Assembly: GCF_000092285.1 (NCBI RefSeq)
Contig: NC_014100.1
Location: 4,340,001 to 4,404,000 of the forward strand
Reading direction: 5' to 3'
Origin: Caulobacter segnis ATCC 21756
GTDB lineage: Bacteria; Pseudomonadota; Alphaproteobacteria; Caulobacterales; Caulobacteraceae
Length of the DNA stretch: 64,000 bases
Positions 16,027-22,902 of this stretch are shown here, one piece after another. The position numbers were made by a program, and so were the translations under genes. Within the stretch, counting starts at the first letter, position 1; each line of letters opens with the position of its first letter. The notes under the pieces are model-generated. The model worked only from the letters and a program-made list of their open reading frames with translations, was not told the origin of the DNA and did not search any database.

Positions 16027-16919
16027 ATGCAGCAGGCCGACTTCGCTGATCTCGACGTCTCTTCACCGCCGTGGCCCGGGCGCGCGGCTTTCGCGCGGCC
16101 GCCGCCCTGCGCGGCGTGTCGGCCTCGTCGCTGAGCGAAGCGGTGCGACGGCTGGAGGCCCGCCTAGGCGTGCGCCTGCTCAACCGCACCACCCGCAGCG
16201 TCACCCCGACCGAAGCCGGTCAGAAGCTGCTGGAGCGCCTTTCGCCGGCGCTCGCCGACGTCGCCCTGGCGCTGGACGAGGTCAACGCCTTTCGCGACAG
16301 CCCGACGGGCACGCTGCGTCTGAACGTACCGAGCGTCGTGGCCAAGGTGGTGCTGCCCAGGCTGCTGCCCCGCTTCCTGGCCCTGCATCCGGGTGTGGCG
16401 GTGGAGGTGACGGCCGAGGACTCTTTCATCGACGTTCTGGCGGCCGGCTTCGACGCGGGCGTCCGCTACGACGAGCGGCTGGAGAAAGACATGATCGCCG
16501 TGCCGCTCTCGGGACCACAACGCTTCGTTCTCGTGGCCTCGCCTGCCTATTTCGACACGCATGGACGCCCCGGCCATCCGCGCGACGTGCTCGAACATGC
16601 CTGCATCCGTCATCGCTTCGCCAGCGGCTCCTCCTATGCGTGGGAGTTCGAGAAGGACGGCGAGGTGATCCGCATCAATCCGACGGCGCGGCTGACCTCG
16701 ACCAACATCGACCTTGAACTGGCGGCTTGCGAAGCGGGCGTCGGCCTGATGGCGACCTTCGAGGACTTCGTCGCCGACGCCCTGGCGGCGGGACGATTGG
16801 AGAGCGTGCTCGACGACTGGCTGCCCCCGTTTACGGGCCCCTACCTGTATTACGCCGGTCGGCGGCACATGCCAGCGCCCCTGCGCGCCTTCGTGGACTT
16901 CCTAAAGACCGAGCGCTAG
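16027..16919 (+). CDS. LysR-family regulator, frame broken near the N-terminus
   Basis: Read from ATG 16027, the frame fits LysR for eleven codons (MQQADFADLDV) and then derails. The rest of a normal LysR (ARARGFRAAAALRGVSASSLSEAVRRLEARLG onward) is in another frame. Removing two bases in the TCTCTTC stretch at 16057-16063 restores DVFTAVARARGF and a 296-residue protein of family size. A GTG at 16071 could start translation but would delete helix 1 of the DNA-binding domain. The effector domain is complete to 16919. Confidence 0.8.
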
Positions 16920-17026
16920 CTCTTACAATTGCAAATACAGTTTTAACTAAATATAACTCCACCTAGAGTGGTCTAGCGATTCGCGTGAATTGCGGCTCAA
17001 GGCCGCCAGAAGTTCTTGGAGTATCG

Positions 17027-20000
17027 ATGGCGGTTGTCAGCTCCGATCCGTCGGCCCTGTCCAGTCTCACGACGACCCGGATCGCCGGACTGAGCGCGGC
17101 GGCTCTGGCCGCCGCCCCGCCATCGGAATTCGCCAAGCTCACCTCCCGGCAGGTCGCGGCGATCTCGGCGACCGCAATCGCCGCCCTGAGCGCGGAGCAG
17201 TTCGCCAGGTTCGGCGCCAACCAGCTGGCGGGCCTCACCGCCGCGCAGTTGCCTCGCCTACCTGCGGTAGGGTTCAGCAGCACCCAGCTCATGGTCTTGA
17301 ACCAAGCTCAGGTGTCAGCGCTCTCCCGCACCCAGATTCAATCGCTGACCACCGAGGCGCTGGACGGGTTGCGCACGACCCAGATCGCGGTCTTGAGCGC
17401 GACGAATGTCTCAGCCCTTAGCCGGGAACAGGTCCAGAGCCTGTCAGCGGTCCAGCTGCGCGCGCTGAGCGCGGCTCAGCTGCGAGGCCTTTCCGCCGGG
17501 GATATGGCGGAGTTCAGCCTGGATCAGCTGGCGAGCCTGACACCAACCCAGATCGGCGCGCTTGGCCCTACGCAGGTGGTCAGTCTTTCGCAAAGCCAGA
17601 TCGGCGCGCTGACCCCAGCCCAGTTCGCCGGCCTGTCGCCCGCGACCATGCGCGCGCTGCCGCCAGAAACCATCGTCCTGTTTTCCCCGGACCAGTGGTC
17701 GAGGGCGACCTCCGGCCAACTCTCGTCCCTGACGTCGCCCCAGCTGAACGCCCTCGGCGATCGCAAGGCCGTGTTCACGGCGACGCAAATCCGATCCCTG
17801 TCGCCTGCGGAACTCGGACGAGCCGGTCCACAATTCCTCGCCGCCCTGACGCCGACCCAGCTGAATGGTCTCGCGGCGAACCAAGCGGCGGCGCTGTCGG
17901 TCACCGCGACCACAAGCCTCAACACCACGCAACTGGCGGCGCTGGACCCCGTCGCCCTCGGCGGCTTGTCGCCCACGGCATTCTCGGCGCTGAACGCCAC
18001 ACAGGTCGGCGCCCTCAGCGCCAGCCAGATCGCGCGCCTTCGCGGTGATCAGCTAAAGGCCTTGAACGGCGAAGACTTCAACGAATTCACCCGCGCCCAA
18101 CTCAAGGCGTTCACGGCGACTCAAATCCGGGCTCTGCCAGCAGAACGGCTGGCCTCCCTGTCGGACGAGGCCTTTTCGACCTTCACGTCCACCCAGCTCA
18201 AGGCGATGACCGCGCTGCAGCTGAAAGCGCTCTCGCGCAGCGATCTCGCGGCCCTTTCGCCAGAGCAGGCCGGCGCCCTGACCGCGGCCCAGCTCACCGA
18301 GCTGTCCGGAACCCAGTTGGCGGCGCTGCGTCAGGCCGGCCCTTTCTCGATCGGGCAGATTTACGGCATCACCGCGACCCAGCTTAACGCCTTCACGCCG
18401 ACCGACATCGCCAGCCTGACGACCACTGAGATCAGCGGGCTCAAAGCGCCGCAGGTGAGCGGCCTGACCCCGACGGCGCTTTCCGCCTTCAATCAAGGTC
18501 AGATGGACAGCCTGGGCGTCAACCAGCTGCGTGGCCTGACCGCCACCCAGCTGAGCGGCCTGGACGACACGGATGTCGGACAACTCAGCGCCACCCAGAT
18601 CGCGCTCCTCGATGGAACGCAGATTGGCGCCATGGCGCCCCACCTCTCGGCCACGATTATCGGCGGACTGACCGCCATGCAGGTGGCCAGGATGTCGGTG
18701 ACCGCGCTCGACGCGCTCTCGACGGCGCAGGTCGCCGCTTTGGGGCCGACACAGCTGAAAGCTCTGACCGCGGAGCAGATCGGCCGCTTACCGTCGGACA
18801 TCGCCTCCGCTCTCACCGCCTCGCAGATCACGGCGCTGACGTCGAAACAGCTGAGCGCGCTCTCGCCGGAAAATCTCGGCCGCCTGTCCATCGACGGCTT
18901 GGCGCGGCTGGACGCCAGCCAGCTCAGAGGCCTGACCGCCACCCAGGCCCGCAGCCTGACGTCCACTCAGATCAGCGCCTTGAACGGAACACAGATCGCC
19001 AGCTTGACCACCAGCCAGATCGGAGCGCTCTCGGCGGACGTGGTGACGGACCTTTCGACGACCCAATGGGCCAGCCTGAGTGGAACCCAGACCCAAGGCC
19101 TGACCGCTACGCAGCTGGCCGGACTGGACGCGGGCGATCTTCAAAAGCTGTCAGCCACCCAATGGACGGCGCTGCGCTCGACGCAGATCGCGGGCCTTGC
19201 GGCGACGGCCATCGCCGCCCTCGCCCCCGAACGCTTAGCCCTGCTGACGCCATCCCAGTTGGCTGGCCTCTCACCGAATGCGCTCTCCGCACTGGACGCC
19301 GCCCGCATCGCCGCTCTTTCGACCAGTCAGATCGCAGCCCTGACCGCCACGCAGCTTCGCGGTCTTTCGCCCGAGGACATGGCCGAGTTCAGCGCCACGC
19401 AGATCGGTGCGATTGGCGCCGCGCAGCTGGCCGCCCTGCCCTCAAGCGATGTGGCCGCGCTGAACGTCACCCAGGTTGCGGCCCTGGGCGTCAGCCAGAT
19501 CAGGGCCTTGGCGGCGTCGCAGATCTCGGCGCTACGCCCGACCCAGCTGAGCGGCTTGTCGGGCAGCCAGTTGACTGCGCTGAGCGCCGTCCAAATCGGC
19601 GCCCTGTCGACTGACGCCGTGGCGGCTCTGACCATGACGCAGATCGGTGCGCTGACCGCGAGCCAGATCGCGGGCCTTGGCGCGACCCAAGCGGCGAATC
19701 TGACCGGAGAGCAGCTCGTAGGTCTGTCTGAGACCCAGGTGGGCGGTCTGACCGGGAGCTTCCTCGCCGCACTCGGCCCCACGGCCTTCTCGACGCTGAC
19801 CGCGACCCAGGTCGCGCGCCTTTCGACGACCCAGCTGCAGAGCCTGAGCACCACTCAGATCAGCACGCTTTCAGCCACCGATTTCGCCGAGTTCTCAACC
19901 ACCCAAGTGAACGGGCTGAACGCGTCGCAATTCGCGGCTCTGTCGATAGCGAACCTGACCTCCCTATCGTCCACGCGCCTGGCTGGCCTGACCGCCACAC

Positions 20001-21043
20001 AGTTCAGCGGCTTGACGACCACCCAGCTGGCCGCCTTGCCCGACACCGTCGTGCGGCCCCGCATCGGCCAACTGACAACCGGCCAAATCGCGGGCGTCTC
20101 GAGCACCCTGATCGCCAGCCTGTCGACCACCGAGGTCGCGGCGCTCAGCGCCGGTCAGATCGGCGCGCTCTCCGTGTCCGCTTTCGCGGCCCTGGGGACC
20201 AGCGGGTTGGCCAACCTGACCTCGACCCAAGTGGCGGGGCTCGCTACGACGCAGATGGCCGGCCTGGACTTCAGCAGCTTCGGAAGCTTCTCGGAGACCC
20301 AGGTCGCGGCGCTCTCCGCAGCGCAGATCGGCGCCGTGAACGGCGACGTCCTTTCGGCTCTGGACGCCACGCAGTTCGCCCGTCTGACGACCGCCCAGGT
20401 GCGGGGCCTGACGACCAGCCAGATCGAGCGTCTCAGCGCCACGGACATCGGCGAGATCACCACCACCCAGATCGGCGCCCTCAATCCACAGCAGATGGAG
20501 AGCTTCTCGGCCGCCGACATTTCGGCCCTGACGGCGGGGCAGGTTGCGGCCCTCTCGGCGGCGCAGATTTCGGCGCTGACGGCGGTCCAGGTGCGCGGCC
20601 TCAATCAAACCGACATGGCCGAGCTCAGTCGGACACAGATCGCGAGCCTCACATCCAGCCAGATCGGGGCCCTCTCCATGGACGCCATCGGAGCGCTTTC
20701 GGAGGAGCAGTTCGGCGGCCTCACCGCGACGCAAGTGCGCGGCCTCACGGCGGATCAGCTGGCCGCGCTCGGCGTAAGCGGTCTCTCCCGCTTGTCGGGC
20801 CCACAGCTTGGCGCGCTGACGACCACCCAGGTCGGTCAGTTGCCGACGGCCTCGATCCAGGCGCTCAACACCACCCAAATGGGTCAGATCATGCCCAGCC
20901 AAATCCCGGGCTTCACAAGTATCCAGATCGCCGCCCTCACGCCAATCCAGCTGAGCAGCCTGTCCCGCGCACAGATCAACAAGCTGACCGCCGCGCAGCT
21001 CGATGCGATGGGGCCAGGACAACTGGAGGCGATCGGCCTGTAA
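17027..21043 (+). CDS. Giant octapeptide-repeat protein of unknown function
   Basis: 1338 residues, almost wholly built from an eight-residue repeat of consensus [S/T]-x-x-Q-[I/L/V]-x-[A/G]-L, about 165 copies, broken by a few irregular spacers (for example near residues 240, 430 and 540). Each unit begins with an S/T-x-x-Q/E pattern that fits a helix N-capping box, so a solenoid of very short helical turns is one reasonable guess. There is no signal peptide, membrane segment, RTX repeat or recognisable end domain. Similar repeats occur, from memory, in large bacterial proteins labelled exoproteins. The start is the ATG behind CTTGGAG; an earlier in-frame codon at 16985 has no binding site. 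Confidence 0.85.
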   Translation: MAVVSSDPSALSSLTTTRIAGLSAAALAAAPPSEFAKLTSRQVAAISATAIAALSAEQFARFGANQLAGLTAAQLPRLPAVGFSSTQLMVLNQAQVSALSRTQIQSLTTEALDGLRTTQIAVLSATNVSALSREQVQSLSAVQLRALSAAQLRGLSAGDMAEFSLDQLASLTPTQIGALGPTQVVSLSQSQIGALTPAQFAGLSPATMRALPPETIVLFSPDQWSRATSGQLSSLTSPQLNALGDRKAVFTATQIRSLSPAELGRAGPQFLAALTPTQLNGLAANQAAALSVTATTSLNTTQLAALDPVALGGLSPTAFSALNATQVGALSASQIARLRGDQLKALNGEDFNEFTRAQLKAFTATQIRALPAERLASLSDEAFSTFTSTQLKAMTALQLKALSRSDLAALSPEQAGALTAAQLTELSGTQLAALRQAGPFSIGQIYGITATQLNAFTPTDIASLTTTEISGLKAPQVSGLTPTALSAFNQGQMDSLGVNQLRGLTATQLSGLDDTDVGQLSATQIALLDGTQIGAMAPHLSATIIGGLTAMQVARMSVTALDALSTAQVAALGPTQLKALTAEQIGRLPSDIASALTASQITALTSKQLSALSPENLGRLSIDGLARLDASQLRGLTATQARSLTSTQISALNGTQIASLTTSQIGALSADVVTDLSTTQWASLSGTQTQGLTATQLAGLDAGDLQKLSATQWTALRSTQIAGLAATAIAALAPERLALLTPSQLAGLSPNALSALDAARIAALSTSQIAALTATQLRGLSPEDMAEFSATQIGAIGAAQLAALPSSDVAALNVTQVAALGVSQIRALAASQISALRPTQLSGLSGSQLTALSAVQIGALSTDAVAALTMTQIGALTASQIAGLGATQAANLTGEQLVGLSETQVGGLTGSFLAALGPTAFSTLTATQVARLSTTQLQSLSTTQISTLSATDFAEFSTTQVNGLNASQFAALSIANLTSLSSTRLAGLTATQFSGLTTTQLAALPDTVVRPRIGQLTTGQIAGVSSTLIASLSTTEVAALSAGQIGALSVSAFAALGTSGLANLTSTQVAGLATTQMAGLDFSSFGSFSETQVAALSAAQIGAVNGDVLSALDATQFARLTTAQVRGLTTSQIERLSATDIGEITTTQIGALNPQQMESFSAADISALTAGQVAALSAAQISALTAVQVRGLNQTDMAELSRTQIASLTSSQIGALSMDAIGALSEEQFGGLTATQVRGLTADQLAALGVSGLSRLSGPQLGALTTTQVGQLPTASIQALNTTQMGQIMPSQIPGFTSIQIAALTPIQLSSLSRAQINKLTAAQLDAMGPGQLEAIGL

Positions 21044-21112: not shown

Positions 21113-21147
21113 AAAAAGGCCCGGCGGGTTTCCCGCCGGGCCTTTTC
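21113..21147. terminator. Bidirectional terminator between repeat protein and efp
   Basis: An eleven-base-pair GC stem (21118-21128 with 21132-21142) and three-base loop, with an A run on the left and a T run on the right. It can end both converging transcripts. Confidence 0.88.
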
Positions 21148-21168: not shown

Positions 21169-21735
21169 CTAGTCCTTGGCGCGTTCGACGTACGAGCCGT
21201 CTTCCGTCAGGATCACCACCTTGGTGCCGGCGGTGATGTACGGCGGCACCGTCGTCTTCACCCCGTTGCTCAGCACGGCCGGCTTGTACGACGAACTGGC
21301 GGTCTGGCCCTTCACCGACGGTTCGGTGTCGACGATCTCGAGGACCACGGTGCGCGGCAGGTCGATGGCGATCGGCACGTCGTTGTGGGTCGACAGGATG
21401 ACGGTCATGCCTTCCTGCAGGTACGGGGCGGCGTCGCCGATCACTTCTTCCGTCGCCACGAGCTGGTCGTAGCTTTCCGGGTTCATGAAGTGATAGCCGT
21501 CGCCATCGCTGTACAGGAAGGTGTGGTTGCGATCGTCCACGAAGGCGCGCTCGACCTGTTCGGTCGTGCGGTAGCGTTCCGAAACCTTCACGCCGTCCGA
21601 GATGCGGCGCATGTTTAGCTGGGTCACCGGGGTGCCCTTGCCGGGGTGGATGTTCTCGGCGCTCAGGACGACATAGAGCTTGCCGTCCATGTCGACGACG
21701 GAGCCTTTGCGGAGCGAGCTGGCTGCGACCTTCAC
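21169..21735 (-). CDS. efp: Translation elongation factor P
   Basis: 188 residues, three beta-barrel domains. EF-P rescues ribosomes stalled at proline runs. The loop that carries the modifiable lysine reads HPGKGTP, with Lys33, equivalent to the beta-lysylated lysine of the E. coli protein. The gene for the probable modifying enzyme, EpmA, starts 120 bases away on the other strand. A TATAGC (21811-21816, GCTATA on the minus strand) upstream may be the -10 element. Confidence 0.96.
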
Positions 21736-21855
21736 GTAGTTTCCGTCCTTGGTGGAAAGCGCGCGCGAGGCCGCGGGCGCGTTCGTGCTATTGATCCGTG
21801 AGCGCCCTCCTATAGCGAAAGGGGCGAAATCTCCAGTCTCTTCGGTTTAGAGCCC

Positions 21856-22902
21856 TTGCCGCACCCTTCCTCGACCTGGTGGCGCTCCGACGTCCATCAA
21901 GACCGCCGGCCCTTCCTTCTGGCCCGCAATCGCATCACCAAGGCCTTCAGGGCTTGGTTCGAAGCGCAGGGCTTCGAAGAGGTCGAAACGGCCGCCCTCC
22001 AGGTCTCGCCGGGCGCCGAGGCGCACCTGCACGCCTTCGCCACCGAGGCGCTGAGCGCGGGGGGAGAGGCCTCGCCCCTCTATCTTCACACCTCTCCAGA
22101 GTTCGCCTGCAAAAAGCTGCTGGCGGCGGGGGAGGAGAAGATCTTCAGCCTGGGCAAGGTGTGGCGCAATCGCGAGCGCGGACCGCTGCACCATCCCGAG
22201 TTCACGATGCTCGAGTGGTATCGGGCCAAGGCGCCTTACGAGACCCTGATGGACGACTGCGCGGCGTTGCTGGCGCTGGCGGCGGAGACCGCCGGGACAA
22301 AGCGGTTCGATTTCCGAGGCATGGCCTGCGATCCGTTCGCCCAGCCCGAGCGGCTATCGGTGGCGGAGGCCTTTCAGCGGCATGCAGGCGTGGATCTGTT
22401 GGCGAGCGTCGCTTCGGACGGCGAGACCGATCGCGGCGCTCTGGCGGCCTCGGCCCGCGCGGCCGGCGTCCGCGTCGCCGAGGACGACACCTGGGCCGAC
22501 ATCTTCAGCCGGATCATCGTCGAAAAGGTCGAGCCGCGCCTGGGCGAAGGTCGACCGACGATCCTGTGCGAGTATCCGATCCCCGAAGCGGCACTGGCCC
22601 GACCCAAGGCCGCCGATCGACGCGTAGCCGAACGCTTCGAGCTCTATGCCTGCGGCGTCGAGCTGGCCAACGCCTTTGGCGAATTGACCGATCCGGTCGA
22701 GCAGCGCCGCCGCTTCATCCTGGAGATGGATGAGAAGTCCAGGGTCTATGGCGAACGCCACCCGATCGACGAGGACTTTCTCGCCGCCCTCGGCCACATG
22801 CCTGAAGCGTCCGGCTCGGCCCTGGGCTTCGATCGACTGGTCCTGCTGGCGACGGGCGCCCGGCGTATCGAGGATGTGTTGTGGACGCCCGTCGCGGGAT
22901 GA
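21856..22902 (+). CDS. epmA: EF-P lysine ligase (lysyl-tRNA synthetase paralogue)
   Basis: 348 residues: a class II lysyl-tRNA synthetase catalytic core without the N-terminal anticodon-binding domain, as in EpmA/PoxA/GenX. Motif 2 (KVWRNRERGPLHHPEFTMLEWY) and motif 3 (GSALGFDRLVLLATGARRIEDV) are complete. It should attach beta-lysine or lysine to Lys33 of the adjacent EF-P. The start codon appears to be TTG at 21856. EpmB, which makes beta-lysine in enterobacteria, is not in the window. Confidence 0.92.
   Translation: MPHPSSTWWRSDVHQDRRPFLLARNRITKAFRAWFEAQGFEEVETAALQVSPGAEAHLHAFATEALSAGGEASPLYLHTSPEFACKKLLAAGEEKIFSLGKVWRNRERGPLHHPEFTMLEWYRAKAPYETLMDDCAALLALAAETAGTKRFDFRGMACDPFAQPERLSVAEAFQRHAGVDLLASVASDGETDRGALAASARAAGVRVAEDDTWADIFSRIIVEKVEPRLGEGRPTILCEYPIPEAALARPKAADRRVAERFELYACGVELANAFGELTDPVEQRRRFILEMDEKSRVYGERHPIDEDFLAALGHMPEASGSALGFDRLVLLATGARRIEDVLWTPVAG

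Follow-up and report, generated by a model that had tools for sequence, protein, structure and literature searches.

The window gene and its octad repeat

We analyzed a 64,000-bp stretch of the Caulobacter segnis ATCC 21756 chromosome (NC_014100.1, forward-strand positions 4,340,001 to 4,404,000), hereafter the window. On its forward strand, an open reading frame (ORF) at 17027-21043 with an ATG start encodes a 1338-amino-acid (aa) ALTTAQ-repeat protein, built from an eight-residue unit. The features on which the argument turns are listed below; plain coordinates refer to the window, and those prefixed C1 refer to the genome's single 4.66-Mb contig.

17027..21043, + strand: ALTTAQ-repeat protein gene, 1338 aa, stop codon included (ORF, Pfam match, octad segmentation, and ratio of nonsynonymous to synonymous substitution rates [dN/dS])
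17045..21034, + strand: 163 octads spanning residues 7-1336, with short interruptions or edges at six places between units (segmentation; one AlphaFold2 helix per octad)
C1:1323927-1333590: pair formed by an ALTTAQ gene and a glycosyltransferase family 41 (GT41) gene elsewhere in the same genome (gene neighborhood and profile score)

A preliminary description of this DNA, made from the letters alone, had proposed that the octapeptide repeat runs nearly from end to end, that the gene is maintained, and that its product lacks a signal peptide. All three proposals held, the third by inspection. Segmentation placed 1304 of the 1338 residues in 163 octads, of which the commonest residues are S/T-A-T-Q-L/I-A-A-L; Gln occupies position 4 in 66% of the octads and Leu position 8 in 83%, and the strict form [ST]xxQ[ILV]x[AG]L is found 40 times. 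Self-identity of the protein is 0.26 to 0.30 at lags 8, 16 and so on up to 64, compared with 0.06 to 0.10 at lags 5, 7, and 9. Against the nearest ortholog (L042; 80% identical and also 1338 aa), dN is 0.127 and dS is 0.766 by the NG86 method, a ratio of ~0.17, and conservation within the octads is position specific. By inspection, the Ser/Thr-rich protein has no hydrophobic N-terminal stretch and no Cys.

At the DNA level, Tandem Repeats Finder (TRF) returned three rows only, confined to two short stretches of the gene. The DNA is thus no fresh tandem array; the repeat is old and the octad has been kept at the protein level. An alternative in-frame GTG start at 16985 is possible, but the ATG at 17027 is supported by the starts of the aligned relatives: five of the seven begin at that Met or at most one residue away, and two are called with N-terminal extensions.

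Family assignment and predicted fold

The preliminary description could not assign the geometry of the repeat to a known fold. The protein instead falls in Pfam family PF20080 ("ALTTAQ repeat") with an E value of 8e-123 and 400.2 bits against a cutoff of 26.4, and 43 stretches pass on their own; the same repeat is present in a 120-residue protein in the PDB, 9zem. A characterized family of known function would have overturned the earlier account, and PF20080 is functionally blank in literature searches. These searches, with most subscription papers outside their coverage, found no function for the family, which does not show absence from print. Neither ALTTAQ nor HeliScrew nor the motif strings were the subject of any paper returned, and the 7 hits containing just the string PF20080 concern unrelated subjects, judging by title. 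The ALTTAQ-GT41 pairing reported below did not turn up in them either.

The window chain was modeled with AlphaFold2 in two pieces (residues 1-940 and 939-1338), with confidence (pLDDT) of 88.0 and 92.9, respectively. In the models there is approximately one helix of 4 to 6 residues per octad, beginning at octad position 2 and mostly finishing at 6 or 7, with the position-1 Ser/Thr just before it. The window protein is accordingly predicted to be an unbroken solenoid in which each octad contributes about one very short helix; Ser/Thr-1 would cap each helix, Gln-4 would belong to its capping box, and the core would consist of residues 5 and 8. The regular solenoid of very short turns and the N-cap with its Gln-4 partner had both been anticipated in the preliminary description, and the models agree with it on each point. 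No strand of 3 or more residues appears in these predictions, which speaks against a β-solenoid of the pentapeptide or ice-nucleation type.

Several other assignments were considered and set aside. A leucine-rich repeat was rejected on profile score (PF13855, 18.3 bits against a cutoff of 27, no stretch passing alone) and on the lack of strands in the models; leucine-rich-repeat chains found in PDB sequence searches (down to 7.7e-14) were attributed to composition, again given models without strands. Since no single stretch exceeds the cutoff, matches of the window protein to CAAP1 (50.7 bits, cutoff 25) and DUF4351 (26.2 bits, cutoff 25) were taken as whole-protein sums produced by the repeat. 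The same applies to Gp5_trimer_C, LRR_EndoS, CAAP1, DUF4351, and Phage_TAC_7 on a 2462-aa paralog and to LRR_EndoS on a 552-aa paralog.

Larger ALTTAQ genes are usually paired with one GT41 subtype

These two paralogs are further PF20080 genes of the genome: a 2462-aa gene (C1:1323927-1331315) and a 552-aa ORF. Lying 209 bp 3' of the 2462-aa gene on the same strand is a gene for a 691-aa protein combining tetratricopeptide repeats (TPR) with a GT41 domain of the OGT class (PF13844, E = 1.3e-85), followed by a GT61 gene. It is the genome's one GT41 gene at E <= 1e-10. Both its profile score and its OGT-type active-site residues identify it as a GT41 member: His278, Lys447, His525-Thr526-Thr527, and Asp530 are conserved in all 79 distinct partners and align with residues of XcOGT that are presumably catalytic or donor binding.

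GT41 is the one recurrent partner of ALTTAQ genes. Across 139 loci (some genomes are included twice, and L204 has no called ALTTAQ ORF), it formed the top neighbor cluster, present at 91 loci and the first gene downstream 81 times. We built a profile of the linked GT41s (A5) and scored the best 5 candidates in each of 199 genomes of the family Caulobacteraceae. Scores of 1046 to 1129 bits were obtained in 33 genomes; in one further genome the gene is split over two frames, which gave 559 and 519 bits. Below this group, the highest score was 512 bits. The A5 profile sets the linked subtype sharply apart from other GT41s. It occurred in 34 of 39 ALTTAQ-positive family genomes but in none of 160 ALTTAQ-negative ones (Fisher P = 2e-33), and in all 34 it lay <=4.5 kb from an ALTTAQ gene. 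Since 26 of the 160 ALTTAQ-negative genomes hold some GT41 at E <= 1e-30, other types are common there and the tie is with one subtype. Among 385 genomes of a class sample, the only A5 scores above 514 bits outside the C. segnis genome were 934, 953, and 1034, all from ALTTAQ-positive genomes; in two of these the linked GT41 lies ~6 kb upstream with a second GT41 between, and in the third it lies between ALTTAQ frames.

The arrangement is also regular. At 77 of the 87 loci holding the linked type (some genomes twice), it lies downstream on the same strand within 400 bp. Two peptide patterns, run against one genome from each of 84,980 species, yielded 389 encoded relatives, and 52 of the 77 named loci (the best 77 of these 389) have the linked type within 600 bp. 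The other 25 comprise 5 of the window type (one also cut), 4 cut by a contig or locus end, one with the GT41 far off (L186), one with the GT41 in two ORFs (L157), and 14 with none in view. Chance adjacency was rejected on the basis of genome-by-genome co-occurrence and recurrent adjacency across loci. The dependence is one-sided: in these samples ALTTAQ occurs without the enzyme, but the enzyme subtype was never seen without ALTTAQ, which is the pattern expected of an enzyme and its substrate.

Some further genes were seen around these pairs. Several sister genomes have an additional GT41 frame of about 600 aa, which may, from its length, be FlmG. At three Roseomonas and Neoroseomonas loci (L133, L134, and L136), the linked GT41 is followed by another, more distant one of 588 aa, which lies ~2 kb downstream of the ALTTAQ gene. 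A cluster of large proteins recurs after GT41 in 24 loci, mostly as the second gene downstream (e.g., L049:14575-16416); the member tested had no Pfam match. In one genome (G114; L078 and L079), the ALTTAQ genes and the linked GT41 are each split over several ORFs, reflecting either joint decay or assembly errors.

Threonine at octad position 3

For position composition, proteins that were identical, C-terminally identical, or <400 aa were removed, leaving 127, and "linked" was taken as any GT41 within 600 bp. The fraction of units with Thr at position 3 (Thr-3) had a median of 0.73 in 74 linked and 0.51 in 53 unlinked distinct proteins (P = 6e-9). Thr fractions at position 1 were 0.42 and 0.40 (P = 0.06) and at position 2 were 0.35 and 0.29 (P = 0.01). 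In each of eight genomes, Thr-3 was higher in the linked than in the window-type copy (0.74 versus 0.40 in C. segnis); the seven genomes other than C. segnis compared for a window-type copy all hold a linked pair as well. Position 3 falls second in each short helix of the models and should be exposed.

Distribution and paralogs

PF20080 was present in 39 of 199 Caulobacteraceae genomes and in 6 of 385 genomes of the class sample, C. segnis counted. Hosts among the best 77 of the 389 relatives include the alphaproteobacterial genera Caulobacter, Phenylobacterium, Asticcacaulis, Roseomonas, Neoroseomonas, Telmatospirillum, Magnetospirillum, Azospirillum, and Rhodoplanes and, outside that class, Solidesulfovibrio (Thermodesulfobacteriota), Opitutaceae, and Spartobacteria, the last two of which we take to be verrucomicrobial. 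The pair itself is also found in the Solidesulfovibrio and verrucomicrobial genomes. GT41s of Solidesulfovibrio, Opitutaceae, and Spartobacteria are 64 to 70% identical to their nearest alphaproteobacterial counterparts, whereas the C. segnis GT41 has a median identity of 51% to all others, which suggests that the pair has been transferred between phyla. GT41 identities and ALTTAQ C-terminal identities are correlated (r = 0.78), as joint descent would also predict.

Orthologs of the window gene in Caulobacter records reach 69% best-segment identity. The seven aligned relatives measure 1338, 1340, 1341, 1354, 1363, 1402, and 1403 aa, part of the difference being due to N-terminal extensions, and a more distant relative (L126) has 1565 aa. 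Among close orthologs (1338, 1338, 1340, and 1341 aa), length is unusually constant for a repeat protein. In the 2462-aa paralog, matching segments at C1:1326612-1327139 and 1329564-1330091 are spaced by 2952 bp, exactly 123 octads; this is a large in-frame internal duplication, unlike anything in the window copy.

Signals and neighbors at the window locus

The remaining features of the window locus are as follows.

16071..16919, + strand: LysR-type regulator (PF03466, 4.7e-35; PF00126, 1.3e-14)
17018..17021, + strand: GGAG, a likely ribosome-binding site five bases before the ATG (read from the sequence)
21114..21146, no strand assigned: perfect 15-bp palindrome with a TTT loop, intrinsic terminator between convergent genes (fold energy)
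21169..21735, - strand: elongation factor P (EF-P) (PF09285, PF01132, PF08207)

The palindrome folds at -34.8 kcal/mol (z = -7.4) and was missed by a generic terminator scan. It bears out the earlier proposal that the ALTTAQ gene has its own terminator, and because it is positioned between that gene and the convergent EF-P gene, it may serve both. EF-P and a class II tRNA-synthetase-like gene, which we infer to be EpmA-like, flank the ALTTAQ gene, together occupying 21169-22902, and recur near some of its orthologs.

Discussion

Genome comparisons show the window copy to be an orphan whose larger ALTTAQ paralogs stand in an operon-like pair with one TPR-GT41 subtype. Profile matches place the repeat protein in a family that is known but functionally blank, and the pairing with one OGT subtype is the new part. 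The reading we favor, at a probability of roughly 55%, is that these proteins are short-helix solenoids, that the linked ones are multiply O-glycosylated by a dedicated OGT, and that the window copy is modified in trans, in part, or not at all. The TPR-GT41 would act in the cytoplasm, read the solenoid, and add sugar to many repeats, most likely at Thr-3, the outcome being a sugar-coated rod. With its fewer Thr-3 residues, the window copy would be a related structural rod modified only partly or not at all by the genome's single GT41; it may be served in trans by that enzyme or be an unmodified companion.

A number of observations weigh against this reading. The window gene has no GT41 beside it, its neighbors being the LysR, EF-P, and tRNA-synthetase-like genes, and its seven aligned relatives likewise lack a GT41 neighbor. 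ALTTAQ occurs without the linked subtype in 5 of 39 family genomes, three of them 98 to 100% complete (G028, G098, and G123) and two 79 and 83% complete (G050 and G057, respectively), and in 2 of the 5 ALTTAQ-positive class genomes other than C. segnis (G238 and G338); A5 scoring in both samples covered only the best 3 to 5 GT41 candidates per genome. At the 14 named loci where a linked GT41 is not in view, the ALTTAQ gene is long and there is room around it, although some of the genomes concerned hold a pair elsewhere (e.g., that of L174). The Thr-3 contrast is confounded by descent, with few independent lineages. The 552-aa orphan of C. segnis reaches a Thr-3 of 0.69 without a GT41 neighbor, and values of at least 0.80 occur in six unlinked proteins, some of which come from cut loci or have a GT41 at a greater distance; another unlinked protein (L167) has 0.11. 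As for the fold, the model of residues 1-940 has a predicted template modeling score of 0.46, and AlphaFold2 can be overconfident on regular repeats. Lastly, there is no conserved exporter near the pair among 105 first non-GT41 neighbors of named loci (from 136, with 31 from window-type loci, large proteins, and near-duplicates left out by hand): HlyD_3 was matched in 4 and ABC_tran in 2, and no Pfam family was matched by more than 6. We therefore claim no surface location.

Three other explanations must be weighed against glycosylation of the repeat. The solenoid could be a binding scaffold: the TPR-GT41 would dock on the ALTTAQ rod, which would serve to concentrate the enzyme, regulate it, or position it to act on other targets. 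In favor of this, each partner is a superhelical repeat protein, some genomes with ALTTAQ lack the enzyme, and partner binding is common for solenoids, as PMC10035497 indicates for ARM/HEAT proteins. Acceptor sites, however, better account for the regular rows of Ser/Thr at positions 1 to 3 and for the rise of Thr-3 content with linkage, and we regard a scaffold role as unlikely. We give somewhat less credence to export of the protein as a rod at the surface or in a matrix, in the manner of an adhesin or S-layer; the GT41 link would then be secondary and exit would be nonclassical or type I without a cleaved signal peptide. The huge size, Ser/Thr richness, and lack of Cys and of a visible signal peptide in the window protein would suit such a rod, and glycosylated surface rods are common, but no RTX profile, which a type I adhesin would lead one to expect, was present among Pfam matches to E = 10, and the neighbors described above include no recurrent exporter.

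It appears very improbable that the repeat is a selfish or weakly constrained expansion whose product is disordered in the cell and yields a solenoid model only through its regularity. Repeats do grow easily, as the duplication in the giant paralog illustrates, and the models were built on just 44 and 6 sequences. Set against this are the dN/dS of ~0.17, the position-specific conservation, the near-constant length in close orthologs, and a solved protein with the same octad, 9zem. That protein, HeliScrew4, shares the octad pattern in register with the window protein over 59-residue stretches (E = 1.4e-15) and matches the ALTTAQ family profile at E = 1.9e-27, a likeness of sequence rather than of coordinates. 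It differs in having only 120 residues and, to judge from its name, is probably a designed protein; it was not among the matches listed in fold searches with the window models. Mesothelin and ARM/HEAT proteins, short-helix right-handed solenoids according to PMC10035497, gave weak fold matches to those models, with Foldseek probabilities of up to 1.00.

Known TPR-glycosyltransferases resemble the proposed pair in part. PMC7591256 describes FlmG of Caulobacter crescentus as a cytoplasmic TPR-glycosyltransferase that glycosylates flagellins and binds them via its TPR part. Like the enzyme proposed here, it is dedicated to abundant repetitive substrates; it differs in that these are flagellins, in its length (596 residues versus ~650 to 720 for the linked GT41s), and in that the linked subtype scores far from other GT41s. 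XcOGT (2jlb) and TtOGT (5djs) belong to the same GT41 family as the C. segnis enzyme (E = 8.7e-87 and 1.3e-59, respectively). For TtOGT, PMC4683255 reports that activity on any tested substrate peptide was not detected; unlike TtOGT, the linked GT41 subtype comes with a candidate substrate.

The genome-by-genome tie of one GT41 subtype to a single protein family, whose hydroxyls form a regular row, makes a substrate directly testable in a laboratory bacterium and points to a likely function for PF20080. The family is also a candidate for a natural solenoid of over a thousand residues in which one short helix is formed every eight residues. We see an even chance that ALTTAQ and its linked GT41 form a self-contained bacterial O-glycosylation module, moved between phyla, in which a giant solenoid is made into a glycan-coated rod and orphans such as the window copy, with a Thr-3 of 0.40 against the median of linked PF20080 members, are length-fixed companions whose acceptor row is partly lost. 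If this is true, the module would provide bacterial OGT homologs with a class of natural substrates.

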